Assembly (NCBI GenBank): GCA_027382625.1
Contig: JAJKFJ010008851.1
Location: forward strand, 1 to 15,170
Reading direction: 5' to 3'
Source: Tetmemena sp. SeJ-2015
Taxonomy: Eukaryota > Ciliophora > Spirotrichea > Sporadotrichida > Oxytrichidae
Length of the DNA stretch: 15,170 nucleotides
Of the stretch, positions 187-15,170 are shown piece after piece. Every line of letters starts with the position of its first letter. Positions within the stretch are counted from its first letter, which is position 1. A model generated the notes under the pieces. That model ran no database searches. It was not told the DNA's origin and saw nothing but the letters and a program-made list of their open reading frames with translations. A program made the position numbers and the translations under genes.

Positions 187-3100
187 TCAGAATTAAGAAA
201 TTTAGCTTTTATCCTCTTCCTCCTCATTTGAAGATAGGTTACTTTCTGTTTCCTCTTTAATTATATCTGAAAAAGAAGTAAAGCTGCTATTTGAGTTTGT
301 ATCATCATGCTCATCTTGCGAATGCTAAATTGAGTACTCCATTGATTGGTCAATAAATGATCTTCTTTAAGAGTTATTGATTTGAGATTAAGACTCATGC
401 AGTTCTGGATGGTTAGCGCTATTTCCTACTCCCTCTTAAGTTTTTGGAGGTGTTGATATATAACTTGATTAATCAAACTTGAAATTAGCGCTGTTACTGT
501 TAATGTTGTTGGCATGACTGCTATTTATGTTGCTACTTTAGCGCATTTCATAATCTCCATACTCACTTTCTTCAATCACCGGGAAAAGACTAGTTGTCTT
601 ATCAGACGTAACTGTATTAGTAGACTTCTTAATGTCAGGATGCTGCTAAATATTTATACGAATCACGTCTTTCTCCTGTTTGCGTTTTTTCTCAAGCTTC
701 TTAAATTCTCTTTCTAGTTTAAAGAGCTTGACTAGCTTATTCTTAGTAGCTTGTGACAAATTCAGTAGTTCCTTGCTCAGTTCCTAAGTTTCTTATGCTT
801 GATAGTTCAATTGATGTATGCGAGCCTTATTACGAGTATCATAGTAGTTAAATAATTAGTCACTCTTCTGATTCTAAAAAGAAACCATAGCCATTTAAAC
901 TTTCACAAAGTTAATCAGTTCTAACTTGTATTGATTCTCACTAGTCAATTTTTAAGGTAAAGCACTCAGACATAGCTTTATAATAAAAAGGAGAATGATT
1001 AGATTCAACAATCAATTATAAGTTGACTTGATTATGGCCTTGATACTTTGACACAAAAATGAACTTGTTAAGAAAATTCTCAATTATAAATAGTCCCATA
1101 GAGACTTTACTATATAAAATTTATAGCTCCAGCATTTACTCATCTACAGCAGTCTGGATTTTGAACTCAAATTCTGAATCATCAAACATATACATTTATT
1201 TATTCTTGTTCTTCCTCAAGCGAAAGAAAATGACTACTGTGGTGATAGAGTAGATGATCTCTTGAAAATATAGATGAGCTGTCCTTTCTATTCTTACTAA
1301 GAAAACTCTTTCTTCTGATTGCATCTTTGGAGCTGAGTTTCTTATTCATGTTCTTGATGAATTTGCTAAGTGACATATTGTTCCTACTTTGCGTTACTCG
1401 AGGCATGCTAGTACTTTTTCTTTGATTATAGTTTTGTTCAATTACCTTTTGCACATACTTTTTACTTAAAAGCTGAGTAGGAGCAGCCCGTAGCCCCATG
1501 TTGGATTAATTTCCCATCGTCAATGGGCGTGTGGGTTACTTCAAATAGAACCCTGAGCGACGTTCAAAGTCTGATAATTTAGATTTTGCGTATTCCTAAT
1601 ACTTAATGCGAGCTAGATAAATTCTCTCCTTCCTTAATTTAAGCCAAGTCATAATGATGAGATCCTTGTCAATAGTGAATGAGGTATCCATCTTTTGAGG
1701 ATGAAGATTCTCCTTCTTTAACTCTTTGAGTTTTTTGACAAGTTCTTCGGTGTTTTTGTACTTTGTGAGCAGCTACAGATTGCTCGAGAGTTTCTTGTTA
1801 AGTTTAGAATTTTGATCTTACTCTATTTCTTGATAAAGCTAGCGCATGCTTTCTATGACATCGTTTAGGATGCTCGCTTGTAAGCTTCTGTAGTATTTAT
1901 GCTTCTGCTTTTTAGCCTTTTCCTTTAGTAGTTGGGATTATTGCACTCCTTTCTTTAGTATTCTAAAAAGACTGAAAGTATCCTTCAGAGCTATGAAAAT
2001 CACAATTGGGATTCCTAAGAAGAACCAATACGCTGCATAAAGCATAGCTCTGCGCTTTTGAGAAATCTTAATAAAGAAAATCAGCTGGATCTTTGAGAAA
2101 ACAAAAACAGCTACTCCCAACTCGAAGGCGAGGAATATTGCTAAGAATAGAATATTTTCGACCCAGTAAATAGTGTAACTTAGAATTCTAAAGGCTCTTA
2201 TTCTTGAATCTCTTCTAAACATGAAAGGAATACATGCCAGCAAAAAGTAGCAAGCTATCATGCTTTCAGGAGGAGGATGCATTCATTATTTAATTAATAA
2301 ATCTTACTTTATGATAAATATGAGAGGTGATTGCTAGTTCACAATAGAGATTTTCCTCGCAATTTTTTCCTTTTTAATCATAGTGCTTTTTTGTTTTGAA
2401 GATGCTTTGAAATCTCTTATAAAAGGAGAACTTAATGTTATTACTCAAAGCATTTTTATTTAAATTTTGATTTGTTCTAATTTTCTGACTATATTCTGCT
2501 GGTACTCTCCATGGACGATCATCTCCTTATAGATTGAAGAGAGTAGCGCTACAAGATAATTAAGCAAGAATATTCGAGTGAGGATCAAGTGTATAATTAT
2601 GAAAATATCGTACGAGCGCTAATAAACTCCATACGCATCGTACTTGTAGTTGGAAGACATCGCATCAAACAGAGTACGGACTGAAAGGAAAAAAGTCCCA
2701 AACTAGTCCTCATTCACAATACCAAAACGCATATTAAAGATACTAGCAGCAATTATCATGTAGCAAGCAAACATGAAACTGAAAGACATTGTATTTGTAA
2801 TCATAGTCACCAAGGTAATTAGAAGTCTTGAAATGTTCTTAATTATCAAGAAGTAGTTGAAAAATCTAAACCAAGTAATTGTAACCACAGCGCAAACGTA
2901 AAAGTCCAAATTTTGCTTCTGAAGTCTGTTTAAAATCTCTTTAGATGTTGCAGAAGAAGTCACATACAAGCAAAAATAAATCTATCTTATAATTTTTGGA
3001 GATAAAATAGTTACAGATGGCTGTGAATAGATCAATCTGAGTCCATAGATCTAATTTAAACTTTTTCTTCGTGAATATGCTATATACTATCTTCTGTCCG

Positions 3101-4297
3101 AATTGAGCGAATATCATTACGCAAAATGAAATTCCTAAGGAAGCCCATTTAGCATATTCTATAACCAGCTTGTCTACCTTAGCTATTAAGGCCGGGTCAT
3201 TATCCTCATACTAATCTTGAATGACATATCCTCCTTCCTAAAGGTTCTATTTCTTGAAATAACTGAGGTAGGAATATCCAATGTATTGAAAAGTAATTAC
3301 TAGGAAGCAAGATAAAGTGATCTCTTTCCAGTAAATGAAGTCAATAGAGTAATGTCTAAAGCTATACTAAAACCAGTAGTCTTATTCTTGGATTTTTGGG
3401 CTTACAAAACTTCCATGAACTATATCCCAAAATCTTAGCTTGTTGGAAATTGTTCTCCTCCCATCGCTTTGATAGATAAAAGAGACATTGCTACTATCAA
3501 GTGGGTCCATCAATCGAGAGATTAAGTTAGAGAAGTCCTTCATCTTCCCATTATATCTCTGATTCTCCTTCCCTATCCACATTTCTTGAAGGATAGAATT
3601 AATCTTTGGACTGTTTATCATTTGAGAGAGGCCAAGTTAATTGATTATAGAGACAGCAGACTTTTATCTATGATCAAACTCAGTTATCAACTTGTCTAAC
3701 ACTATTTGATCATCTTAGCTCTCAATTATTTTCTGAACAAGTTGAACAAATCTAATTTGAGTGAGGACACAAATGTTTTTAAGGTAAGAGTGCGCATGGT
3801 AAAGTCTAGTTAGAATTTCACAAATCAAGGCAATTGCAAGTATGGGATTATGAACGGCCGTGATCATATTCTTTTCATACTCGTCTGTGCAAATTGATTG
3901 AAAGGCATTTAAATATGGATTAAAATATATCTTGAGGCAGTCATAAGAGTATTGATTTGTGTTATGTTCCAGTCTCCCAAGTTGCTGTAATTAAGTAGCA
4001 TCAGAGAGTAAATCACCTTTCCTTATTTCCTACAAAGTTAAGTTCAAATGGATTTTACTATAAATTGACTGTAATGAAGTTTATAACTGCTATATCACTC
4101 AACACCTTATTCATAGATGGCTCTAATTGCAGACAGTTAATCACAAAAGCTTCCTTAAAGTTTAGAACTGCCTCCTTCACCAATTCTGGTGTGATTTAAT
4201 TAAAGCTGATAAGATAAATATAGGATTTAGAATTTAAATAGGGATCTATGAAATAATTGTGATAATAATTATCAGTTATAAATTATTGGATTATCAT
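187..4297 (-). CDS. TRP/polycystin-like cation channel, about 1272 residues, interrupted
   Basis: This is probably a plasma- or ciliary-membrane cation channel of the TRP/polycystin type seen in large numbers in ciliates. With four introns and one IES removed, a single frame runs from ATG 4297 to TGA 189-187. Residues 1-300 are a soluble N-terminal region rich in helices. Membrane segments follow at about 313-335 (after EITLSCF), 372-392 (WASLGISFCVMIFAQF), near 411-440, and an S4-S5/S5 block at about 455-500 (WFRFFNYF, then ISRLLITLVTMI). The pore loop is near 510-525 (FGTFFLSVRTLFDAM) and S6 near 540-565 (LILTRIFLLNYLVALLSS). After S6 comes HPPP at 594-597 and further hydrophobic segments to about 690, an arrangement I recall from other ciliate channels of this class. 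The remaining 580 residues are cytoplasmic, charged, coiled-coil-prone and end in an acidic tail. Ion selectivity cannot be read from the sequence. The family call is from hydropathy and motif pattern, not a search. Confidence 0.82.
941..965 (-). other. Predicted 25-nt intron in channel gene
   Basis: On the minus strand the segment begins GTGCTTTACC and ends GACTAG. Without removal the frame meets a TGA; with removal the phase-2 donor (GA) joins T to give GAT GAG AAT and the open frame continues to the stop at 187. A micro-IES cannot be excluded. Confidence 0.6.
1166..1193 (-). other. Predicted 28-nt intron in channel gene
   Basis: On the minus strand it begins GTATATGTTTG and ends TTTGAG. 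It contains the TGA at 1184-1182 that would otherwise end the protein. Phase 0 on both sides joins ATA AAT to TTC AAA ATC, after which a coding-like frame runs on. The exact 3' end (CAG at 1174 or GAG at 1166) is fixed only by frame. Confidence 0.6.
2279..2449 (-). other. Candidate 171-bp IES with AATGC pointer in channel gene
   Basis: On the minus strand the pentamer AATGC occurs at 2454-2450 and again at 2283-2279. The upstream frame reads AAA ATG CTT TGA (stop) and the downstream frame reads TGA ATG CAT CCT, so both sides carry stops exactly beyond the repeat. Deleting 171 bases with one pointer copy is frame-neutral and joins IQIKM to HPPPES, the short linker expected between S6 and the following membrane block in ciliate channels. 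No GT..AG pair explains this gap. The removed DNA is AT-rich with no long coding frame. Confidence 0.8.
2937..2967 (-). other. Predicted 31-nt intron in channel gene
   Basis: On the minus strand the donor is GTATGT and the acceptor AAAGAG. Removal joins phase 0 to phase 0 (TTT TTG CTT / ATT TTA AAC) and connects the frame holding membrane segments 1-3 to the frame holding the S4-S6 region. Confidence 0.7.
4069..4105 (-). other. Predicted 37-nt intron (or short IES) near channel N terminus
   Basis: On the minus strand it starts GTGTTGAG and ends CATTACAG. It joins the first 64 codons from ATG 4297 to the long downstream frame. An alternative is a 40-bp IES between AGT repeats at 4099 and 4059, which is also in frame; the two cannot be told apart here. 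Confidence 0.5.
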
Positions 4298-4576
4298 ACA
4301 AATTTTAATTTAATCAATAGCATACATAATTTTTTAGGTACAATATTTTTATTTATAATTAAATTGTGGTACTATATATTTATGTTTAAAAATAAGACTG
4401 AAGTACGAAAATGAAGAAAATTAAAAATATTTGTCTTTTATTTTGCTTTAATTATTTATTTTTGTTTGACTTATGAATAAGCTAGGGAATGTAATTAGAT
4501 TCAGTATTTTTAGCAAGCATTATAAGAAGTTTCATTATATGCTTATAGTTCTAAAATCGGTTTAAAATCCTTGAAT
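4298..4576. other. AT-rich divergent intergenic region
   Basis: This very AT-rich stretch separates the start of the minus-strand channel gene from the plus-strand gene at 4577 and presumably carries both promoters. I see no RNA gene. The plus frame used by the downstream gene is open from about 4415 but has no ATG before 4577, so an unseen upstream exon or MDS is possible. Confidence 0.5.
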
Positions 4577-6061
4577 ATGTCTTCAAGAGGGAAATCACTG
4601 TTCCACCACGAACAGTTGACGGTCACCAAAAAGGAGTAGGTTTGCAAAACTCCAAGCCACAAATCCTTAGGAACTGACATGCGCAACCACACTAGATCTA
4701 ATATAAACCTTGGAACTGATGAAGCTCCACACTTCATGGAAGCTTTTGAGATTCAATAAATCTACGATCAAATTTACGATCTCCCACTTAACAATAGTTT
4801 CTTAAGTTTTAATTGAACAAGAAATTAACTGAAGAGACTCCTTAAATTATTACAGTCGCACAGCTAAACAAGAAATAAACTTTTTGATGTATTTTTAAAG
4901 CTGAAGCTTCAACCTAGATCTAAGAACTCCTAGAATATGTTTGAGAGTACGATGCAAGCTTAAAAGAACCACAAACTCGAGCAAAGTCTAGTTCTATTGA
5001 AGGAAAACCACATCAAGCATTTGACATACCAGCATGCCTATCTACAAGAGCTGAAGAAGTTAAAGAAAAAGTTTATGCAATTTAGAAGACAAACTATTGA
5101 GAAGCAATATCAGCGCTTGCTTCTTTGCTTTTGGGTTGCAGTTCACATGGAGAGAGATACATTAGTCAAATTTCTGTACAATAGATACGAAATTTTAGCA
5201 TGCTTGGTCTAGCATCTGTACAACTCAGCAAATAAGGACAAAGAGAATATCATGAAAGAGTTCAAGGAAAAGAAACTCTATTTCTAGGGAAGTCAATAGC
5301 CAGAGGCCGCTCTCTTATCAGCATCTGCAAAGAGCTTTAATCAAATCTAAAAATAAGAACTAAATGAGGCGAAAAAGTAATCTAACACTTGGCAAAATGC
5401 TATGAGATTGGATACTTTACAGTACGAGAAAGATAAGAAACCTCCATTCGATGATTGTATAAGTGATAGAGACAGGGCTAAGTGTAACTACCTAATTCCC
5501 GAGTACATGAGATTGAAATCAAAGATAGGAACTAGCTTAGATTTCTTCCCTCAGGAGATTAGAGAGACTCTTAAATCAAAGAGTGAAATAAATAAGAGCA
5601 TGAATTCAGAGGCTAGAAAATCAGGGGAGATTTCTCCATTTTAATCTGAGCAAGAGGAGAAGTAAGTGAGAGAAAGGATGGTTACTGAGAACAAGCATAT
5701 GATTGAAATTAATGTGAAAGAGATAAAACTTCTGATGATGAGTTCGATTGGTTCTGGGATAAGCACCTAGATTCTGTAAATTGCTCTAAACGATGAAGAA
5801 TTTGTAATAGCTGACATAGTGGCTATCTACTATTAAGCTCAGGTGAATAAAGCTTGCCTTTTTAGAGCAATAGTTACAAAAAACATTTCTTTCTTGAAGT
5901 TGTTATTCCTTACTGATAGGATAGCGAAAGTGCAAGATAGCCAGTACTAAACTAATTCAATTATGAGCTTGCAAAATTAAAAGTCATGTCTCAATATGAA
6001 AATGTAGGGTGAGAATATTTGTTAAAAATTTAGAAAAGACTAATGTTTAAATTCTCAATGA
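4577..6061 (+). CDS. Unknown charged helical protein, about 476 residues, one IES
   Basis: I do not recognise this protein. The frame starts at ATG 4577 (MSSRGKSLFHHEQ) and ends at TGA 6059-6061. It uses many in-frame TAA and TAG codons. A single in-frame TGA at 4814-4816 interrupts it; excising the 54-bp candidate IES at 4787-4840 removes that stop without changing frame. The N-terminal 70 residues are polar. About residues 75-220 are Leu/Lys/Gln-rich and look like a coiled coil (LQELKKLKKKF). A central basic-acidic region follows (FDDCISDRDRAKC), and the C-terminal third has two mildly hydrophobic helices (IALNDEEFVIADIVAIYY and the segment after NISFLKLLF) that look amphipathic rather than membrane-spanning. 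It converges on the small minus-strand gene at 6115, with 53 bases between the stops. A start upstream of 4577 cannot be excluded. Confidence 0.7.
4787..4840 (+). other. Candidate 54-bp IES with CTTAA pointer
   Basis: CTTAA occurs at 4787-4791 and 4841-4845, 54 bases apart. The removed stretch contains the only in-frame TGA (4814-4816) of the surrounding gene. After removal the frame reads CTC CCA CTT AAA TTA TTA CAG. No GT..AG pair of length divisible by three spans this stop. Confidence 0.6.
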
Positions 6062-6114
6062 TTATTTCTTTTTGAAAAAAAAATATAACCCCTTAAACGC
6101 TAATTAACCTCATA

Positions 6115-6414
6115 TCACTGAATTTAAACAATGAAAAATTAATCATGAAACATTAAAATATCTTGATAGTTGCATTCAGACAAGAATGCAGAGGGTTTAT
6201 CCTGAGCGATGAAAGAATACATTCGATGCTGCATCGTGAAGCTTTTGTAGTTTAGTAGTCTGATGTTATTAGAGAATTCCTGAAACATATTTGCCTTGAT
6301 TGGGAAATAGATTAGGTTTTTCAGCCAGGGTTGATTAAAGTCTTGCTCTAAAACGATTTAGAGTGCTTAGCTTGGTAAGACTATTTCAGTTAAAGATTTA
6401 TTTAGTGAATTCAT
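6115..6414 (-). CDS. Small unknown protein, 99 residues
   Basis: An uninterrupted minus-strand frame runs from ATG at 6414 to TGA at 6117-6115 and uses TAA as Gln four times. The peptide starts MNSLNKSLTEIVLPSQ, is rich in aromatic residues in its middle and C-terminal parts (PWLKNLIYFP, FTMQHRMYSF), and has no signal peptide or membrane segment. Its composition and the absence of TGA over 100 codons in AT-rich DNA argue that it is a real single-exon gene. It is convergent with the gene ending at 6061 and divergent from the gene starting at 6541. I cannot assign a family. Confidence 0.6.
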
Positions 6415-6540
6415 TCAAAAGAATCAGTCGTAAATCACACCTTACCTATATAATTATAATTACTGATGATAATTTTTTATTTTGAAGAATAGTATAGAGT
6501 AAATGCCGCTCAGGCCAAGATAATTTAAAATAAAAAGAGT
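6415..6540. promoter_or_regulatory. Short shared divergent promoter region
   Basis: These 126 bases lie between the start codons of two divergent genes and must hold both sets of upstream signals. The sequence is AT-rich (TATATAATTATAATTACTG near 6447-6465). No defined box can be named. Confidence 0.4.
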
Positions 6541-7493
6541 ATGGGTAATATCTTACTCTCATCAGCTGCTTCAGAAACCAATGATACCGACGACTAAGAT
6601 GCAACTCAACAGCTGCCTTGCTCCCAGAGTCTTAATTAGTCAGTACAACAATAGTAACAGAAGCAGCATTGGTTTCATGGGAGTTAATTCCCCCACAGGA
6701 GCTCTAATAAATTCCACCCCAACACTGGCAGGAATCTGAAAGGCAGAGCACACAGAATCGTCCAAGAAGTTCAGCAACTGCTTAATGAAACTTAATACAA
6801 TTCTACTGATAAAGAGTAATCCTTCATCCTCCCATCTACCGCAAGAATAAAGGAACCCAAGCTATACATATAAAAAGCATAAATTCTATTATATTATTCA
6901 TGAGGTGAATTTAAAATACTTGAGCTTGAGTATTAGCACAGCCAAGCGCTTTTGATGGATAGAAGAAGGATCAACTAGAGAAAGAAATTGTTTTCTCAAG
7001 GCCAAATTAAACAAACTCAAGAAAAAATTAGCAGATTCTAAAATCAATTCACCCTCAAACAACTTGGCTTAGATGTAAATGCCAAATCTGCAGAGGAAAA
7101 CAGCCAACCTCACCCTAGCATTAACATTAATCTCGAATCTTAGAGCATTTAAAAATCTATGGAGCTTTTCCCTCCTCATCTCTTAGAATTTTATTTTTTA
7201 TTAGATAGTGGCCATAAACTTGGCAAGATAAACTCACTAAATATGAAGAGCTTTCAGACCTTTGACTCATAACAATCGCAATCTTTGAAAATAAATAAAA
7301 ATAGTTTTATATTCTTTAAATATATTTCAGATTTCTGGGTGACAAGATCCAAATTTTACGAGCAGCCAAACATAAATCATTTATAAAGCAATAATTATTT
7401 ATCTTCTTCACAAGTGGCAGCCTCTTTTTCAGTAATTGCTCTTTCTCTCAATTTACAAGCGAATTAATTTAGAAAAATAAAAAAGTAAATTGA
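6541..7493 (+). CDS. Unknown Gln-rich protein, about 281-290 residues, one IES
   Basis: The frame starts MGNILLSSAASETND and has a Gln run near residues 35-40 coded by a mixture of CAA, CAG, TAA and TAG. The Gly2 start is only a weak N-myristoylation candidate because position 6 is Leu. The middle is basic and helical (GRNLKGRAHRIVQEVQQLL; QALLMDRRRINQRKKLF), followed by a conserved-looking segment FPPHLLEFYFLLDSGHKLG. A 39-bp IES at 6892-6930 removes an in-frame TGA. A 41-nt intron at 7432-7472 is needed to reach the stop TGA 7491-7493, and a 27-nt GT..AG segment at 7304-7330 is an optional intron that does not affect frame. The next plus-strand gene starts 32 bases after this stop. I do not recognise the family. 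Confidence 0.65.
6892..6930 (+). other. Candidate 39-bp IES with TATTA pointer
   Basis: TATTA occurs at 6892-6896 and 6931-6935. The segment carries the in-frame TGA at 6901-6903; 11 of its 39 bases are G or C. Removing 39 bases keeps frame and gives ATT CTA TTA TAT TAG CAC AGC, reading KAQILLYQHSQALL, a smooth helix. The pointer match stops at mismatches on both sides. Confidence 0.72.
7304..7330 (+). other. Possible 27-nt intron
   Basis: It begins GTTTTATATTC and ends ATATATTTCAG, a good intron-like 3' end. It is a multiple of three and holds no stop, so it could be retained as coding sequence. Only a transcript would decide. Confidence 0.4.
7432..7472 (+). other. Predicted 41-nt intron
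   Basis: Donor GTAATT after TTT TCA, acceptor AATTTAG. Removal shifts the frame so that the protein ends AAA AAT AAA AAA GTA AAT TGA at 7493; without removal the frame would run on into the next gene. Confidence 0.65.
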
Positions 7494-7525
7494 GGAGCTT
7501 GTTATAGTTTTTATTACAAATTTTA

Positions 7526-10500
7526 ATGTCTTTAGAACGGAGCCAGCGCAAAATTATCAAGCCGATAACTAATACTAACCTTATCGGTGCGCAATAACAG
7601 TTAGATGGCACTACCAGTTATACCTTCTACAACCCCTCTCGGCCAACTGACCATTAAGATTGGCTTTTCAGACTTAAACTGAAGGATAAAGATGCTCATT
7701 AGTAACTGACGAAAGAGCTTTACTCGCTCTCTAAAAAGCACATACTTCGTGAACTTGAGACTAATTTTTATGTGCCTCAATTCTTAGAGCACAATAAGCA
7801 TGCGTGGACCAACATGTTCTTGACCTAGAACAAGGTGGTTGCGAAGATCTTCTACGACTTTCAATCTTAGCTGCTGCAGCTTCTACACACAGAGATGAGA
7901 ACCAATAAGGATTAGCTGCATCACTATTTGAATCTCCCAAATCAGCAATTTCTTAAATCCTCAGGCATCAAGGATTAGAACTAGGCTAAGACCAAATTTT
8001 TAGATAACATACCAAAGATAATCCAGAAGAGGGAGAGGTTGCTCATTGAAAATGTCAAGAAGAAAATTCTAGAGGATGACAAATCTCTTAAACTATATGA
8101 GGATGTTTTGAAGGATGGAACTTCCTTCACCCAAAAGTTTGAGGCAATTAAGCATCTGAGTGAGGACTTTGAGCGAATGGAGTTTCAGAAAGCTATGCAC
8201 GAAAAAACAACAGCTAAGATTCAGCAAATCAATAAGTTGGGAGTCAAAATAGATGAGAACAACCATGACTTGGAACAGAATATTATGGAGTTCTTGGCTG
8301 AGAGTGAGTAAGACAGACTTATACAGAAGCAGTAGCCAGGGAACAAGATTACAAATATGCTTGAAACTTGGGAGGCTGAAATCAAGAGCAAGGCATGGTC
8401 TAAAGACGAGCTAGAATATTATGCAGTAAGTCTTTATAATCTTGTTAACTCTTTATTTAGGATGAATTATGGCTGACAACTGAGCAATTTGAGCGAGACC
8501 TCTAGGACGATATCAAACAATATGTATAAATTATTTTAAGAATTGCCATCAATATTTTGTGAAGGTCATGATATTGAAAAGCAAATGATGCAGAGGAATT
8601 TCAAAAACAAGCTAGAGCAACATAAGTATAAAACTGGCATGTATATCGAAGCAATTGAGGTACAACTTATACCATTAATCTATTTTTAGACCGCCCTCGT
8701 AGAGACTAAAATAAACATGGGGAGCAGATTGGACCAAGTAATGATGGAGTTGAATGACTACGAGTCAAAATTATTCAATGAGCAGATGCAGGAAGATGAC
8801 ATCTAGAAATATCTAGACAGACAAGAGAAAATTAAAGTTTCTAATTTCCATGAAGCAGAGGAGAAACTGCAGGAAAATCTTAAAATCATGAAAGCCATGA
8901 AAACTAACTTAGACAATGCCAAAAGAGAGCAGATCAGAGAAAAGAATCTAAAAGACAACATGACTGCAATTATCTATTATGAAGGTTGTATAATTTTAAC
9001 TAGGGATATGCTAACAGAGTAACTGGACAATTTTAATAACGGTTTTAAATCACTAGCTAATTCTCTATTCACAGTGATTGAGACTCTTAAATTGACAGAC
9101 CAGGCTTTAATAAATGACCTTCGATTGCACTCCACTCCCAGAGAAGGAGAACGCTGGTTGGTTTAAGAACAAATCACGAATATAAGCGAGACCCTCACTA
9201 ACTTAAATTTACACAGTAAGAGTGAGACCTTTTCAATAACCTAGAAGTAAAATGAAGTGAGGAATTAAAAGGTTCTCAATTTACTTCTTGATATCAGATC
9301 ATAGATGATAGACTCAAAAAAGATAGAGTTGAGTGACAATCAGAAAAAGATCCTAAAGGATGTGGTTCTTAGTTTCAACGAGTAAATTCAGAAAAGATAG
9401 AGTATCAATATTGATAAAAGCAAATATTCGATTGCAGCAACAGATCATCCTGAATAAATTCAGAAAGCAGGTTCTCTAAATTTAAAGGGCTTGCAAAAGA
9501 AGTCAGTTATTCTTCCTAAATCTGGTCTACCATCTGCAAACATTAAGAGTAGAGGTTCTCCTAAAAGTCCAACATCAATTAGATAGCTTAGATCTAAACA
9601 AATTGAAAAAGATATCAGTTTAATTCCAAAGAAGGACTAGTAGAAAGATTACTCAATAGATATCTAGGAAATTTGCAATAACCTTTTAGATAATTCAAAG
9701 AACAAATTCAATCTTATGGGCTTTCCAATTGCACAGATAACTAATTTAGACTAACTTCTTCTTAGCGTAAATAAATATATTATGAGTCTAAATCAAGAGG
9801 AGTCCTCGGATTTAAAATTCTAAGACTTTCTCTATATCTAAGAGCATCTAACTCAGCTCCAATTTCTACCTTTGAAACTTTTCCTCTTTCAAGGTAAAAA
9901 GCAAGAAATTGTCTAGATAATTTCTCGTTAAATTGCTATTGCAGAGATCTGTTATGAAAAGCAATAGTTATTGATTCAACCATTAGGAGTAGAAATTGAA
10001 CTTTAAACTGAGGAGGAAAATCACTACAGCTTCATTTCATAAGAAATATCTACTGCTCTTTTCACTGTCAGCAGAGAATTTCCTAATCAATGCTACGAGG
10101 TTTAATAAAGTCTCGATTCATAACAGACTACCTTGACATTCCTCTCAAATCTAATTAAAAAGATGGAATTGGATAGCTCTAAGTCTCCTAAAAACAAGCA
10201 ATCGCCTAACTAATCTCCATTTGGCAAGAGACATAACAGCATCATGAAAGAACTAGGAAATGAATCTCAAGTCAAGAGAAGGCAAACAATTAAAGGATAT
10301 ACAAAAGATGGACCTCGTGAGACTCTCAGTACAAAAAATCTAGCTCTGATTCAATAGAATTCAAGTCCCGGTAGAAAATCTCTGAATGCAGCAGACCCTT
10401 CTCTTTCTCTAAAACTGAAGAGAAATAACATGAGTATGGTTGCAGATGGTCAAAAGAATATTCTCAAGCTGCATATAGTTTCTGAAAGTGCTTCATTATC

Positions 10501-11512
10501 TGAAGAAGCTAATAGTCCTGAGAAAGGTAATACGAGGATTCACAATCTCTTTGAGTAGCATGTCAATTAAGGAAATACCATTATCTTGAAGACTCTTGAG
10601 GACAGTGTAAACTCTCAACAGCAGAGTGAGTATTCACCCGATGAAGAGGAGTCTGATATTTTATTAGATATCTGTTATTTATATTTCTAAGTCTAGTTTT
10701 ACAGCAGGCCATGGAGTCGATACTGATAAAGGCAGTTACTAAAAGAGCAACAGACGAAGTAACAAAGTGAAGTCCTTCAGACGTTCTAATGTGTCTGTCA
10801 ACGATTTAGAATTGAACTAGATCGATAGCTTTGAACCGACCTATAATCCTCCAAGTCCCTTCAGAGAAGAAAGAGTCAGAAACGACAAAGGAAAAAGGTA
10901 ATCTTTAAAGAAACTGAATGATGAAGCTAATTTGAAAGAGCAATTACTGAAGCTGAGCGGATAAAATAGAAATTAAAGCTCAGAGGAGTACCTCAAATAG
11001 TTTTAGACGAAGTAGAAAAATAATTCAATGAATGAAGAAAAAGCATTAGCAAGTTAGAGAAATAAATAAGCTGCTATTCTGGGATAGAAAGCTTTGAGAA
11101 ATACAGATATTATTGTCTAATAAAAACGGCTAGGGATGGTTGATGAAGGCATAAATACTGCCATCGAAATGAAGGACCTCGAGATTATTCTAGAAGTTAA
11201 GAAAGAGGCTAAGAATACCATAAAGGCTCTAGAAAACTTGCTTGAAGAATAATTTTAGTTTATAACTGCATATCTATCTTAAAGATATTCAATTTTATTC
11301 TTTGAAAAATAGTCCGAAATCTCTATTTAAAAGCTAGTTCAATCTTTCATCACAGTAAAACTTAAGCTTCTTTAAGCCAATTCAGCAGCAGAACCAAGAA
11401 TAGCTAAACAGAGATTTGAAATAGCTGATGGTTAATTTAATTTGACTTTATTTCAGCATAAGAATACTATAAATCTGCTTTTAGAATAATTTAAGTTAAT
11501 TTAGTAAAATGA
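7526..11512 (+). CDS. Large coiled-coil protein, about 1267 residues, one IES and four introns
   Basis: The start is ATG 7526 (MSLERSQRKIIKPI). With introns at 8426-8460, 8660-8689, 10674-10704 and 11431-11456 and a 61-bp IES at 8509-8569 removed, one frame runs to TGA 11510-11512. Residues 1-130 are mixed. About 150-480 are strongly charged and helical (FERMEFQKAMHEKTTAKIQQ; KLQENLKIMKAMKTNLDNAK), typical of a long coiled coil. About 600-720 is basic and Ser/Pro-rich with repeated SP or SPK sites (SRGSPKSPTS). A more globular stretch about 730-850 follows, then another basic Ser/Pro-rich region, an acidic patch (DEEESD) next to the third intron, and a helical C terminus. Such architecture suits a cytoskeletal or ciliary scaffold, but I recognise no family and the role is inference. 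The stop overlaps the ATG of the next gene by three bases. Confidence 0.78.
8426..8460 (+). other. Predicted 35-nt intron
   Basis: Donor GTAAGT after GCA and acceptor TTTATTTAG, phase 0 on both sides. This is the clearest intron in the window and sets the small-intron expectation. Confidence 0.8.
8509..8569 (+). other. Candidate 61-bp IES with GATAT pointer
   Basis: GATAT occurs at 8509-8513 and 8570-8574. The frame before it and the frame after it differ by one base, and 61-bp removal corrects this, giving GAC GAT ATT GAA AAG CAA. The result reads FERDLQDDIEKQMMQRNF, a continuous charged helix. G plus C is 14 of 61. The only GT..AG alternatives are a 17-nt segment in the wrong frame and 58- or 70-nt segments unlike the other introns. 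Confidence 0.78.
8660..8689 (+). other. Predicted 30-nt intron
   Basis: Donor GTACAAC, acceptor CTATTTTTAG, between GCA ATT GAG and ACC GCC CTC. It is frame-neutral and has typical boundaries. Confidence 0.65.
10674..10704 (+). other. Predicted 31-nt intron
   Basis: Donor GTTATTTA and acceptor GTTTTACAG. It joins GAT ATC T to CA GGC CAT and avoids the TGA met near 10728 in the unspliced frame; about 240 further codons are then open. Confidence 0.7.
11431..11456 (+). other. Predicted 26-nt intron
   Basis: Donor GTTAATTT, acceptor TTATTTCAG. Splicing gives a C terminus AQEYYKSAFRIIQVNLVK ending at TGA 11510-11512. If retained, the frame stays open to a TGA at 11541-11543 instead. Confidence 0.65.
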
Positions 11513-11956
11513 ATTTAGAGGCAAACTCAAAGCGGGTAGATGAAGTAGTCTTCCCAAATGACTCTACGATGATAATGCAAAAGATTAACGCCTAGATGGT
11601 TGAGTTTAACCCTCAAGGCTCGCTGGTCGCCATAGGTTGCAAGTATGCAAGTGTACTTATCATGGATTTCCTAACCAAGGAAATGATTAGGTGCTTTAGC
11701 ATTTATGAAGACTACGATCTAGAGGCAAATGAAGATGTGGACTAGTTTGCAAACTTCCGCAAACTCAATTACGCCTATCTCGAAGATGACTTCATCCTTC
11801 ACTAAAAGCCTTAAGATGAACGAGAAGCAGATATGCTAGTGAGGAGAGGCCTTGAATATAAAAAGCTCATCCAGTTTGAGCCTAAGGACAAATCGAAATG
11901 CAAAGCTTAGATTGCCTCTTTTGACTGGTCTTTGGATGGGAGACTCTTAGTTGCTT
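11509..11956 (+). CDS. RBBP5: RBBP5/Swd1 homologue, N-terminal germline segment
   Basis: This is the first part of the COMPASS subunit RBBP5 (Swd1 in yeast), a WD40 propeller that supports SET1/MLL-type methylation of histone H3 lysine 4 in the nucleus. From ATG 11509 the peptide reads MQKINAQMVEFNPQGSLVAI, then GCKYASVLIMDFLTKEM, which matches the RBBP5 first blade (TFNRRGTLIAVGC, IWDFLTR) as I recall it. About 55 extra residues follow, rich in acidic and Lys residues, before the next blade strand, SFDWSLDGRLLVA. The homology stops abruptly at the 7-bp pointer GTTGCTT (11950-11956): beyond it the frame adds a few unrelated residues and reaches TGA at 12007-12009. The remainder of the protein lies on the opposite strand at 13081-14841. 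I read this as a scrambled, inverted MDS and not as a truncated gene. A later start at 11569 or 11575 is possible. Confidence 0.82.
11950..11956 (+). repeat. Pointer GTTGCTT, plus-strand copy
   Basis: Seven bases, with the first six in frame as GTT GCT (Val-Ala), identical to the minus-strand copy at 14841-14835. Flanking bases differ on both sides, so the match is exactly seven. Confidence 0.75.
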
Positions 11957-12016
11957 TATTTCAATAGCATTACTATTTTAAATGTTAATTTGAGATAATC
12001 TAAATTTGAATTTAAA
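11957..12016. other. Short spacer between RBBP5 segment and TMEM231
   Basis: Sixty AT-rich bases with no recognisable coding sequence. In the proposed inversion this spacer would be joined to the sequence from 14842 onward. Confidence 0.5.
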
Positions 12017-13007
12017 ATGGCTGTATTGTTTCGAGAGTACTTTGCAAAAAATTATATGGCTAAGGCAGCCTCAGGAACTGCTTTAATTTGCTATTTCTTT
12101 ATGATAGTTGCCTTCGTCCTTCCCTTAATCTTGGTAACAAGAACTCATAGTAAGTTTCATTGGAAGTGCAACTGATTTAGATTTCTGGGTGATTAGTTTA
12201 CATTCAATAAATCATCTAAATGACATCTTGATAATGTTTCAAACAACTTCAGGTGTGAAGTATGCCAGTTCAAATCAAGAAGTCTAAAAGATATTTGCTC
12301 CTTCTTCACTTTAAATATATATTCTCTCAAATTTGTAGGTGGATAATTCAGACCTGAATGACGACTAGACCACAGATAAAATTCAAGCAAAAATTACCGC
12401 AACTCTAGACACCACTACTATTCAGAGCATCATCATAATTTAGCAGTTCTCATACCAGCTCTAGACAAAGAAAAACATTTTTCTCAGAATTATTTAAAGA
12501 TTAAGGCAGACATATTAATGACATCTTTTAGCATAATCCAAACTCCCTTTGGGGTTCAATCATTGAATGCTCTTGGTCATCTCGATTTAAATCAAAGATC
12601 AACCTTCGCGCTTGGAAATTTAAAGAGAGTTATAAATTACGATACTGACCCAATGCTTTTGCAGCTTCAGGACAAAAGTGTACTCGAATTCTATCAATAT
12701 ATTATGCAGCAAAACGCAACTCTTCAATATAAAACAGACAATATAAATGTCATTCCAGGATAATCATAAACCTTTGTAAATTATTTTTGAAGCAGTCCTT
12801 GACATGAGAATCCCAAGCTTGCAAGCCATAGTCTACGTACCTGGAGTTCTTGAAAGCCTGAAGAATTCATGGATTCAGTATTTAGCTCTTCTTATCCCGT
12901 GTCTATGGGTAATTCATAATCTGATTTTAGGCTTTGCTTTCAGAAATAAAGTTCTGCCTGCTCAAATCAAAGTTGACATACCATAGTTGCAGACCACTAA
13001 ATTTTGA
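12017..13007 (+). CDS. TMEM231: TMEM231, ciliary transition-zone membrane protein, about 294 residues, two IESs
   Basis: TMEM231 is a two-pass membrane protein of the B9/MKS complex, which forms the diffusion barrier at the base of cilia. Removing one intron (12150-12180) and two IESs (12467-12495 and 12749-12794) gives one frame from ATG 12017 to TGA 13005-13007. An N-terminal membrane helix lies near residues 17-40 (TALICYFFMIVAFVLPLILV), followed by RTHNFW, like RSHGFW in the animal protein. The body contains FSYQLQ, then 37 residues that match the animal protein length without a gap once the first IES is removed. The second membrane helix near 250-273 sits in SWIQYLALLIPCLWV, matching AWVQYVSILLIFLWV. 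The animal protein is about 316 residues. The gene lies between the two halves of the RBBP5 homologue. The call is from remembered similarity and topology. Confidence 0.85.
12150..12180 (+). other. Predicted 31-nt intron in TMEM231
   Basis: Donor GTAAGT, acceptor GATTTAG. It splits the codon A|AT and joins RTH to NFW, matching the conserved family motif; the unspliced frame hits a TGA inside the intron at 12174-12176. Confidence 0.78.
12467..12495 (+). other. Candidate 29-bp IES with AAAGA pointer in TMEM231
   Basis: AAAGA occurs at 12467-12471 and 12496-12500. Only 5 of the 29 bases are G or C. Removal corrects a two-base frame offset, giving CTC TAG ACA AAG ATT AAG GCA, and leaves exactly the residue spacing seen in animal TMEM231 between FSY and the later LDLNQ/LRLQQ motif. 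No GT..AG intron fits. Confidence 0.8.
12749..12794 (+). other. Candidate 46-bp IES with GTC pointer in TMEM231
   Basis: GTC occurs at 12749-12751 and 12795-12797. Removal of 46 bases corrects a one-base frame offset that otherwise ends in TGA at 12788-12790, and gives AAT GTC CTT GAC ATG AGA. The resulting YQ-to-YVP distance is 35 residues, against 36 in the animal protein as I recall it. The pointer is short, so the exact ends are less certain than the existence of the interruption. Confidence 0.68.
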
Positions 13008-13080
13008 TTATATATATATTAGTTAAGTTTAAGATATAACTTTTAGTAAATTAATTATCTTTCAACCATTTATTCCAAAC
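13008..13080. other. Tail-to-tail intergenic spacer
   Basis: Seventy-three AT-rich bases separate the stop of TMEM231 from the stop of the minus-strand RBBP5 segment. It must hold both 3' ends; a TATATATATAT run lies near 13009-13019. No hairpin or gene is evident. Confidence 0.5.
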
Positions 13081-14841
13081 TCACATGTGTATCTTACTAA
13101 ACTTCTCTTTGAAAACGTCCGTATTAAATTTAGCAAGCAAGCCATAAGTGTCGTACTTAAAGACTTGTATTGGCATCTAGGCAAGATATTTCTAGTAGTT
13201 ATAGTCCATATTATGAAGGCGTTTCCTAAACATCAATTCTAAGTTGTTTGGCTAACCTGAATGCTGCCTAGCTTCTATTTACGTATAGTTACAAAGATGA
13301 TTCTCATCAACAAATTCGACGTCTAACTCAACTTGAGACATTAGCTTTTATCTCATAATCTCCTCCGATAAGCCAAGTCGCTTTCTCTCTTCCTCTTGAT
13401 CATCTGTCAATAGGGTTTGCTTGCTGTTATTTTCAAATTCATCCTCCTTCTCGATATACTCCTTATTCTCTTCTATTTCTGTAAAATATGGAGCAAGGGG
13501 CTAAATAATTCGAGCTGGTCTAGTTGACCACATGAAAAGACTGCCATTATTAGTGACTATGAAAATTGAGAAATGAGCTTTTGAATGAGCAGTCAAAGAT
13601 AAACAGCCCTCTTAAGTTAATTCCAGTCTTTAAATTATTGAGTAATCATCTACGTTATAGAATTTCAACTCATTAGATCCCGATTCTCCAATACTGCTTA
13701 CGAAGAGTTCTTACTAGTAGAGAAACTTATCCTACTACTCTTGCATTTACTACTGATTCTTTTGGTTATAACTCATCGAGCTGAGCATTTACTTAGATTC
13801 ACTCAGCAATTAAGCAGCATCTCCTTTGCCAAGTTAAGATTGCTATTCGATAATCTTTTAATTTGAGCTTAGCTTAAGGAAGCAAGCGTTCATCCATCTT
13901 CTTCTATTTATTACGTCTTGAAATTCGTTCCTCAAAACTAGCATTCTTTAGAAAGGCCCAACCTTATTATATCTCACATGGAAAAGTCTAAGAACTCTAT
14001 CTGAGCATATCATTATTATCTTAGAGAAATCCTCATTAGTAGTAACGCTTTGCACAAATAGGTTGTTGGTTTAAAATCTCACCAGAGCAACTATTTTGAA
14101 CTTTGCTTGGTCGACTTAATTTATCCCATCTTGAATTAACTCTAAGTCCTCATTATTGACTGGCTCTCTTTCATCCTCCATATCATCTGAATAGCTTTCA
14201 TCTTCCATTTTTTCATCTTCATCTGCTGCTTTATTGTGAGCTTATTAATTAGAGTGTGATTGCTTTTGCTATTCCTTCGTATCCTATTTTTTAGGGGAAG
14301 GAACCTTAAATAGATCTTTTGCTTTTAAGAGCTCTGACTTTGCACTACTCTTATCATTTATCAAGGGCTAGAGTATCATGATAAGTTTGTGTTGATTATT
14401 AACTTGAAGGATATAGCTTTGGCCATCCTTAATTAGACTTTGCGTTAAGTAGGCTGAAAACTTAGGCCCTTTCTTTTTGGCTTGCGAGATAGAAGCATTT
14501 TATTGCTATTAGTTAGGAGATTGATCTCTCTTGGCTTTTGAAGGCTGCTATTGATCTACTATCATGGGTTGAACTCCCTCACAGATATCCTAATTATTTC
14601 CAATGACTACTATGTCTGCCTCCTTGTCAAGTGTCACTCTGCATAGGAGAGACTTTTCCCCACTGAGAATAATATATGTATTACAATATGAATTTTTGAG
14701 AAGTAGATAATTAGGGTTGAAGGTGAAGAACTTGGCTGAGAAAATCTAGCATCCAATCTCATGCTGGTGCTAGTGATATAGCTTATTGCAGTTCAGCACG
14801 TCCCAGACGACCACTTGGTTTTCCACTCTGAAGCAAGCAAC
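13081..14841 (-). CDS. RBBP5: RBBP5/Swd1 homologue, inverted main germline segment
   Basis: This supplies the rest of the COMPASS WD40 subunit, reading on the minus strand from the pointer at 14841-14835 to TGA 13083-13081, 587 codons including the stop, with no break. It begins GTT GCT TGC TTC AGA and reads RVENQVVVWDVLNC, completing the blade left unfinished at 11956. Later landmarks match RBBP5 in order: FQDVINRRRWMNACF (family LQDLVNRTPWKKCCF), GSLFMWS, then LAPYFTEIEENKEYIEKE followed by an acidic Asp/Glu stretch (family FAPDFKELDENVEYEERE), the hinge that contacts ASH2L and the methyltransferase. A long low-complexity insert rich in Gln, Lys and acidic residues sits between blades, making the joined protein about 733 residues against 538 in human. 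No Met lies near the N-terminal edge and no sensible start is seen upstream, so this segment cannot be a gene by itself. Confidence 0.86.
14835..14841 (-). repeat. Pointer GTTGCTT, minus-strand copy
   Basis: The plus strand reads AAGCAAC here. It is the inverted partner of 11950-11956 and lies in the same codon phase, at the exact point where RBBP5 homology resumes. Confidence 0.75.
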
Positions 14842-14926
14842 CAAGATAGACTCTTTATAATTGCGTAAGAGTGAATTTGCGATAAATAAGTAAATATCGT
14901 CAATAGCAATAATCAACTGAAAATAA
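14842..14926. other. Spacer between inverted segment and right-hand gene
   Basis: The minus frame of the RBBP5 segment stays open through here and on to a TGA in the region of 15035, but has no Met and lacks the RBBP5 match, so I treat it as spacer or eliminated DNA. It probably also holds the promoter of the plus-strand gene at 14927. Confidence 0.45.
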
Positions 14927-15170
14927 ATGTCTTCAAAGCAGACCAAGTCTAAAAAGAGAAAGAACTTTTATACTCAGCAGCAAGTATACCTTGCCAATCA
15001 ACTTAGCCAGTAAATCGTAATTCAAGAAGAGAAAATCAAAAATATCTATCTAGCCAAGCAAGAAAGGAAAAAGAAGCAGCAATAGATCATCAACGATATC
15101 CATGCACAGCAGCTACTTATTCAGATGCCTCTTATCTAGAGAGTGGTTAGTTCTTAAAAAAGCAGTAACA
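14927..15170 (+). CDS. Partial Lys/Gln-rich protein, runs off right edge
   Basis: ATG 14927 opens a frame of 81 codons to the window edge with no TGA and several in-frame TAA/TAG codons. The peptide starts MSSKQTKSKKRKNFYT, a strongly basic head that could be a nuclear localisation signal, and goes on as a Gln/Lys/Ile-rich helix (LAKQERKKKQQQ) likely to form a coiled coil. The opposite strand is also open over much of this stretch, so the call rests on the ATG, the AT-rich sequence before it (AAATAA) and helical periodicity. The family is unknown. Confidence 0.5.

Follow-up and report, generated by a model that had tools for sequence, protein, structure and literature searches.

How can a gene whose two halves lie on opposite strands of one stretch of DNA still be read as a single protein? 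This question is raised by a contig of 15,170 nucleotides from Tetmemena sp. SeJ-2015 (JAJKFJ010008851.1 in assembly GCA_027382625.1), the whole of which is called the window below. In it a homologue of the COMPASS subunit RBBP5/Swd1 is found as an N-terminal piece on the plus strand and a C-terminal piece on the minus strand, with a short inverted repeat at the edges of the two pieces. We are highly confident that this is a micronuclear (germline) spirotrich gene in two opposed pieces that are rejoined in the developing macronucleus via inverted pointers. Taken part by part, it is very likely that the locus is the germline copy of a split RBBP5/Swd1 gene, and likely that recombination between the inverted pointer copies rejoins its halves as the macronucleus develops. 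A first-pass annotation, made from the letters of the window, had proposed a scrambled germline gene with an inverted macronuclear-destined segment (MDS), and this proposal is now supported by two haplotypes, by the pattern of synonymous change between them and by the occurrence of telomere-capped contigs together with their precursors in the assembly.

The two RBBP5/Swd1 pieces and the repeat at their edges

The window was read with TAA and TAG as glutamine and TGA as stop (code 6). Under this code it contains long open frames of up to 745 codons; with the standard code 13 frames reach 60 codons or more, and the largest of them is 114 codons long. The C-terminal piece is contained in a minus-strand frame that runs from 14946 to 13081 and, when searched alone, matches yeast SWD1 with an E value of 8e-10, human RBBP5 not being among its matches at E 0.01. 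The N-terminal piece alone has the WD40 protein PkwA as its best match (E 1.7e-4) and matches human RBBP5 chains weakly (E 0.029-0.079). The earlier claim that both pieces are RBBP5-like is thus borne out for the C-terminal piece, while for the N-terminal piece the likeness is weak in isolation and finds its support in the joined protein.

Joining the two pieces at the repeat gives a predicted protein of 733 residues with E values of 1.2e-11 against SWD1 and 2.6e-7 against human RBBP5. This protein aligns with SWD1 and RBBP5 in four collinear stretches, although the WD40 stretches are individually weak. The second of the four spans the join with a single one-residue gap (IASFDWSLDGRLLVACFRVENQVVVWDVLN versus VCSLCWSRDGHKLVSA-STDNIVSQWDVLS), as the first-pass annotation had anticipated. 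The gain in homology upon joining resides in the collinear set and not in the join-spanning stretch. Membership of the RBBP5/Swd1 family is indicated by WD40 repeats that are followed by a conserved acidic hinge, and the four collinear stretches include LAPYFTEIEENKEYIEKEDEFE aligned with LAPDFEEVEENVDYLEKEDEFD. The split point falls inside one WD40 repeat, which joining at the repeated sequence would restore, and segments of one gene are in this way found in different orientation.

The repeat is GTTGCTT, which occurs exactly twice in the window, once at each piece edge and in the same codon phase (Table 1). These positions, and the coordinates of both pieces, agree with those given earlier. 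As a bare 7-mer GTTGCTT is common, with 2.65 occurrences expected in the window. Random sampling of 200,000 opposite-strand registers across the window gave an exact run of at least 7 within 24 nucleotides at a frequency of 0.0019. What is unusual about the repeat is its placement at the homology edges in the correct codon phase, not its mere occurrence. The repeat is present twice in the germline sequence, at the end of one segment and at the start of the next, as is characteristic of a pointer.

Comparison with a second haplotype

Each half of the gene matches two places in the assembly (146,216,379 bases), namely the window, which is the whole of contig C639, and the 166-kb contig C3319. 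The C3319 copy has the identical inverted layout with both junctions at the same base. The two contigs were compared over window positions 1650-15170, with positions 1-1649 outside the comparison, and they align from 1650 to the end of the window over 13.5 kb at 95.5% identity. This end-to-end match leads us to read them as haplotypes and not as recent duplicates. In C3319 the inverted repeat extends to 13 bp (TCTTAGTTGCTTG), and the 7-bp repeat of the window corresponds to this 13-mer altered by substitutions at two positions, 11957 and 14842, each lying to the outside of a pointer copy. Runs of at least 13 were found in 4 of 1,000,000 random registers of the 13.5-kb C3319 stretch; the same stretch contains 29 inverted 12-mer pairs when overlapping and AT-rich ones are counted. 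The longer repeat thus strengthens the case against chance, with its placement again being what carries the weight. Immediately beyond the pointer, the frame of the N-terminal piece in C3319 runs into a TGA. Divergence also changes at this edge, with 7 differences in the 61 nucleotides beyond the N-side pointer (11957-12017) versus 2 in the preceding 61 bases.

The differences between haplotypes allow selection on the two halves to be assessed. Across the 149 codons of the N-terminal piece there are 14 synonymous and no nonsynonymous changes, and across the 585 of 586 codons compared in the C-terminal piece there are 75 synonymous and 3 nonsynonymous changes (dN/dS 0.009), so that the halves together show 89 synonymous versus 3 nonsynonymous changes at a synonymous divergence near 0.2. 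When 14 and 78 changes were placed at random, with 60% transitions assumed, the mean numbers of nonsynonymous changes were 10.4 and 57 and the minima were 2 and 44. Because changes between the haplotypes are almost all synonymous, neither half resembles a decaying relic and the gene is very likely alive. The beginning of the C-terminal piece is of particular interest. Its first ATG is at codon 93 and there is none in the 35 codons upstream of the piece, yet in codons 1-92 there are 13 synonymous changes while the amino acids are unaltered, and one of these codons contains a single-base gap in C3319. Since amino acids are unchanged where no ATG is available, codons 1-92 are very likely translated and in need of an upstream partner.

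Proposed rejoining in the macronucleus and its alternatives

Micronuclear spirotrich DNA can be recognized in this assembly by the presence of telomere-capped contigs beside telomere-free precursors. The telomeric C4A4 20-mer CCCCAAAACCCCAAAACCCC occurs 67 times, and nine contigs begin with it at base 1; a reversed-pattern control is uninformative, as this 20-mer is identical when read backwards. For example, C298 consists of a telomere and sequence that in C1815 continues upstream without a telomere, and C586 is related to C500 in the same manner. C298 and C1815 align in two collinear blocks around an insert of about 6.5 kb that is present in C1815 and absent from C298. The trinucleotide TTA, a 3-bp pointer, is found at both edges of this insert and marks the join at 2352-2354 of C298. 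With C4A4 repeats at its left edge, this insert, which is like an internal eliminated sequence (IES), resembles the hypotrich elements named telomere-bearing elements in PMC9797194. These contigs show that the assembly contains both somatic chromosomes of a spirotrich and their unfragmented precursors from the germline, and that pointer-type removal has affected at least one insert. The window contig would itself be germline, given its unfragmented 166-kb counterpart.

Recombination at GTTGCTT would invert 11957-14834, keep one copy of the pointer and rebuild a 733-codon frame. A TMEM231-like gene that lies between the two RBBP5 pieces, and that goes unmentioned in the first-pass annotation, would be carried along. 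The resulting order would be RBBP5 (+), TMEM231 (-) and the next gene (+), in which the inverted TMEM231-like gene would be convergent with RBBP5 and divergent from the next gene. Because a simple inversion would give this ordinary layout with no leftover sequence, nothing in 11509-14926 need be eliminated. We infer, as the simplest history, that one evolutionary inversion in the germline split the gene, with one breakpoint within RBBP5 and the other in the spacer between TMEM231 and the next gene, and that it would be tolerated since the halves are put back together at the repeat during macronuclear development. The repeat may stem from this evolutionary inversion or from prior microhomology. 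Guidance of such joining by RNA has been reported for Oxytricha. A more specific proposal, which we offer tentatively and regard as somewhat less probable than its negation, is that this is a first-step scrambled gene in which one germline inversion, with no eliminated DNA, is undone in the somatic nucleus by a programmed and lossless inversion at one pair of pointers, taking an entire TMEM231 gene with it, and in which the pointer erodes only on its outer sides, as the 13-bp and 7-bp haplotypes suggest.

These sequence patterns strongly suggest that the joining takes place in DNA, and the rebuilt frame would be its product. The first-pass annotation went further and held that the locus must be rearranged at the DNA level since splicing cannot join opposite strands. 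This was too strong, as trans-splicing can do so; the inversion could in principle be present in the somatic nucleus also, with the mRNA formed by trans-splicing of two opposite-strand pre-mRNAs. One in-frame GT-AG join, with its GT at 11950 and the exon resuming at 14850, would indeed keep both halves whole in either haplotype and give DGRLL-SIL-VACFRVENQ, and almost exclusively synonymous change in both halves would be expected in this case as well. More broadly, among in-frame stop-free GT-AG pairs with donors in 11920-11995 and acceptors in 14905-14776, two are common to both haplotypes, one adding SIL and the other dropping 20 residues past the join, and three further pairs are specific to the window and four to C3319. 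However, the join that keeps the protein whole adds three residues (SIL) uncalled for by the RBBP5/SWD1 alignment and makes the 7/13-bp repeat a coincidence, whereas the assembly displays DNA-level differences at a pointer. Additionally, its 5' site, GTTGCT, is unlike that of two introns that fit a change of frame (GTAAG, at 8426 and 12150), which is a weak argument in that the search pattern demanded GTA[A/T]G. We consider trans-splicing very unlikely.

Three other explanations are extremely improbable in our judgment. An evolutionary inversion may simply have broken the gene, leaving a pseudogene or a true working copy elsewhere. Both assembled haplotypes are indeed broken and the C3319 copy contains a single-base gap, but a pseudogene is at odds with the excess of synonymous change over both halves, and a separate complete RBBP5 gene, named earlier as a refutation, is opposed by the two assembly matches of each half, both of which are of the inverted form. 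The halves could also be made as independent proteins that come together in one propeller, with which the TGA directly past the N-side pointer in C3319 and the constraint apparent in both halves are compatible; against it, the C-terminal half is unchanged in amino acids over the 92 codons that precede its first ATG, the cut lies within one WD40 repeat and the DNA repeat is left unexplained. Finally, a chimeric or wrongly flipped contig, which might be invoked as the evidence consists of assembled contigs and no reads, is strongly disfavoured, since two contigs that differ by about 4.5%, of which one spans 166 kb, share both junctions to the exact base.

Several observations weigh against a germline gene rejoined at its pointers. 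A search of the assembly for the joined RBBP5 junction, tolerating up to 3 mismatches, gave 0 matches, so the earlier statement on DNA-level rearrangement holds as a strong inference and not as a necessity, its macronuclear product being unseen in this assembly. Short somatic chromosomes may be absent from the assembly, as the contigs of seen length are all over 10 kb. A survey that used eight of the nine contigs with a telomere at base 1 as queries (the first 10,000 bases of each, all but C770 scored) produced no second inverted gene, with three having a long near-identical counterpart, all of them collinear, and four having none. The join-spanning stretch by itself is weak, its scores in the five alignments shown lying between 0.1 and 3.4 bits, and a search of the joined protein against a set of 5.8 billion proteins returned 4833 candidates with 0 at E 0.001, and hence no ciliate orthologue with which to check the join. 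An inversion by staggered breaks would likewise leave inverted repeats that are without programmed use. Divergence rises past the pointer on the N side only, with the C-side spacer conserved (2 differences in 85). Lastly, the C3319 copy has a single-base deletion at codon 57 of the C-terminal piece that would be a frameshift if real. Further single-base gaps are present between the window contig and C3319, and because of these we take the gap at codon 57 to be a probable assembly error.

Spirotrichs offer many well-described examples of scrambled genes with inverted segments. In the literature, 13.6% of Tetmemena loci are given as scrambled and pointers at scrambled junctions as generally longer than other pointers (PMC9797194). 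Inversion-type scrambling is common, accounting for 21.4% of the scrambled chromosomes of Oxytricha trifallax and for 69.4% of those of Strombidium cf. sulcatum (PMC10901763). These inversion loci (PMC10901763, PMC9797194) are described there as defined by somatic-to-germline mapping, whereas the RBBP5 locus is defined by haplotype substitution patterns. According to PMC2394655, actin I of Stylonychia lemnae, the textbook example, similarly has opposed coding segments with pointer repeats and needs an inversion in macronuclear development, and pointers in the genes of that study are 3-19 bp. Actin I comprises ten segments and nine IESs and is also permuted; in contrast, the RBBP5 locus has two segments, one inverted junction and no recognisable eliminated spacer. 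Nested or Russian-doll loci of Oxytricha, as presented in PMC5940158, also have a gene between two segments of another gene. The RBBP5 locus differs from these in having one layer only, and a plain inversion would leave the TMEM231-like gene beside RBBP5. Among the matches listed by a full-text literature search, with most subscription journals outside its coverage, RBBP5 is not mentioned. We regard the RBBP5 locus as a new case of a familiar type that stands out through its simplicity, the gene nested in it and a pointer seen in two haplotypes. With two segments and one inverted junction it is about as simple as an inverted scrambled gene can be. It offers a way to ask how an inversion expected to kill a gene reaches fixation, how long a pointer has to remain exact and whether an inversion can be reversed in the somatic nucleus with no loss of DNA. 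It also illustrates that comparison of germline haplotypes can strongly indicate, without a somatic genome, that a broken-looking germline gene is alive.

Neighbouring genes and other observations

Table 1. Features of the RBBP5/Swd1 locus and its surroundings, in window coordinates
Feature	Position	Strand	Remarks
RBBP5/Swd1 N-terminal coding piece (putative MDS 1)	11509..11956	+	residues 1-149, pointer at end; code 6 open reading frame (ORF); homology weak alone, supported in joined protein
RBBP5/Swd1 C-terminal coding piece (putative MDS 2)	13081..14841	-	586 codons and stop, pointer at start, inverted relative to MDS 1; SWD1 match
Pointer copy 1, GTTGCTT	11950..11956	+	13 bp in C3319 (TCTTAGTTGCTTG, equivalent to 11945-11957)
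Pointer copy 2, GTTGCTT	14835..14841	-	inverted; equivalent of the 13-bp copy is 14834-14846
Spacer past pointer copy 1	11957..12016	+	diverged between haplotypes
TMEM231-like gene between the RBBP5 pieces	12017..13007	+	PF10149 TM231 matched at both ends, middle unmatched
Spacer from pointer edge to next gene	14842..14926	.	conserved between haplotypes; no ATG in the frame of the C-terminal piece
Next gene, start only, ended by contig end	14927..15170	+	ORF; 5 synonymous and 2 nonsynonymous changes versus C3319

The TMEM231-like gene begins 60 bp past the pointer and is convergent with the C-terminal half of RBBP5, with 73 bp between the two stops. Its matches to PF10149 TM231 cover profile positions 3-47 of 301 (E 0.0016, under the cut-off) and 243-299 (E 2.9e-10, over the cut-off). 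An intron-like GTAAG...TTTAG is found at 12150-12180, and two single-base gaps, at 12483 and 12998, separate the gene from its C3319 counterpart. The next gene, which starts 85 bp from the second pointer edge, has no Pfam match at E 0.01.

Elsewhere in the window, minus-strand ORFs in 187-4214 probably belong to one ion-channel-like gene. Pfam Ion_trans is matched at 2448-3035 with an E value of 1.7e-5, just below its cut-off, and the region has weak matches to ion channels in PDB (E 0.005). Two of the ion-channel-like ORFs overlap in 2710-3035, where a single G at 2998 separates the window from C3319, which is indicative of either an intron or an assembly indel. The adjoining 4215-4560 is non-coding and shows 14% divergence between haplotypes versus 3-5% in the measured genes nearby.

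Among the telomere-capped contigs of the survey, C586 aligns with C500 in one block that reaches the contig end and C1030 aligns with C4981 in two collinear blocks, with C1301, C739, C4966 and C4311 having no long near-identical counterpart for the first 10 kb queried. In C1030, 444 bases at 4685-5128 are without an equivalent in C4981, and in C4981 the matches to either side of them share 4 bases; this segment may be an internal eliminated sequence that was retained, or else a variant form. An 84-base piece of C586 (3749-3832) is 100% identical to C2429:12131-12214, whereas the surrounding 5.7 kb match C500 at 94%, and it was perhaps supplied or duplicated from another locus. Finally, a segment of about 230 bases at 9765-9998 of C739 has 77-97% identity to dozens of places and is likely a dispersed repeat in a telomere-capped contig.

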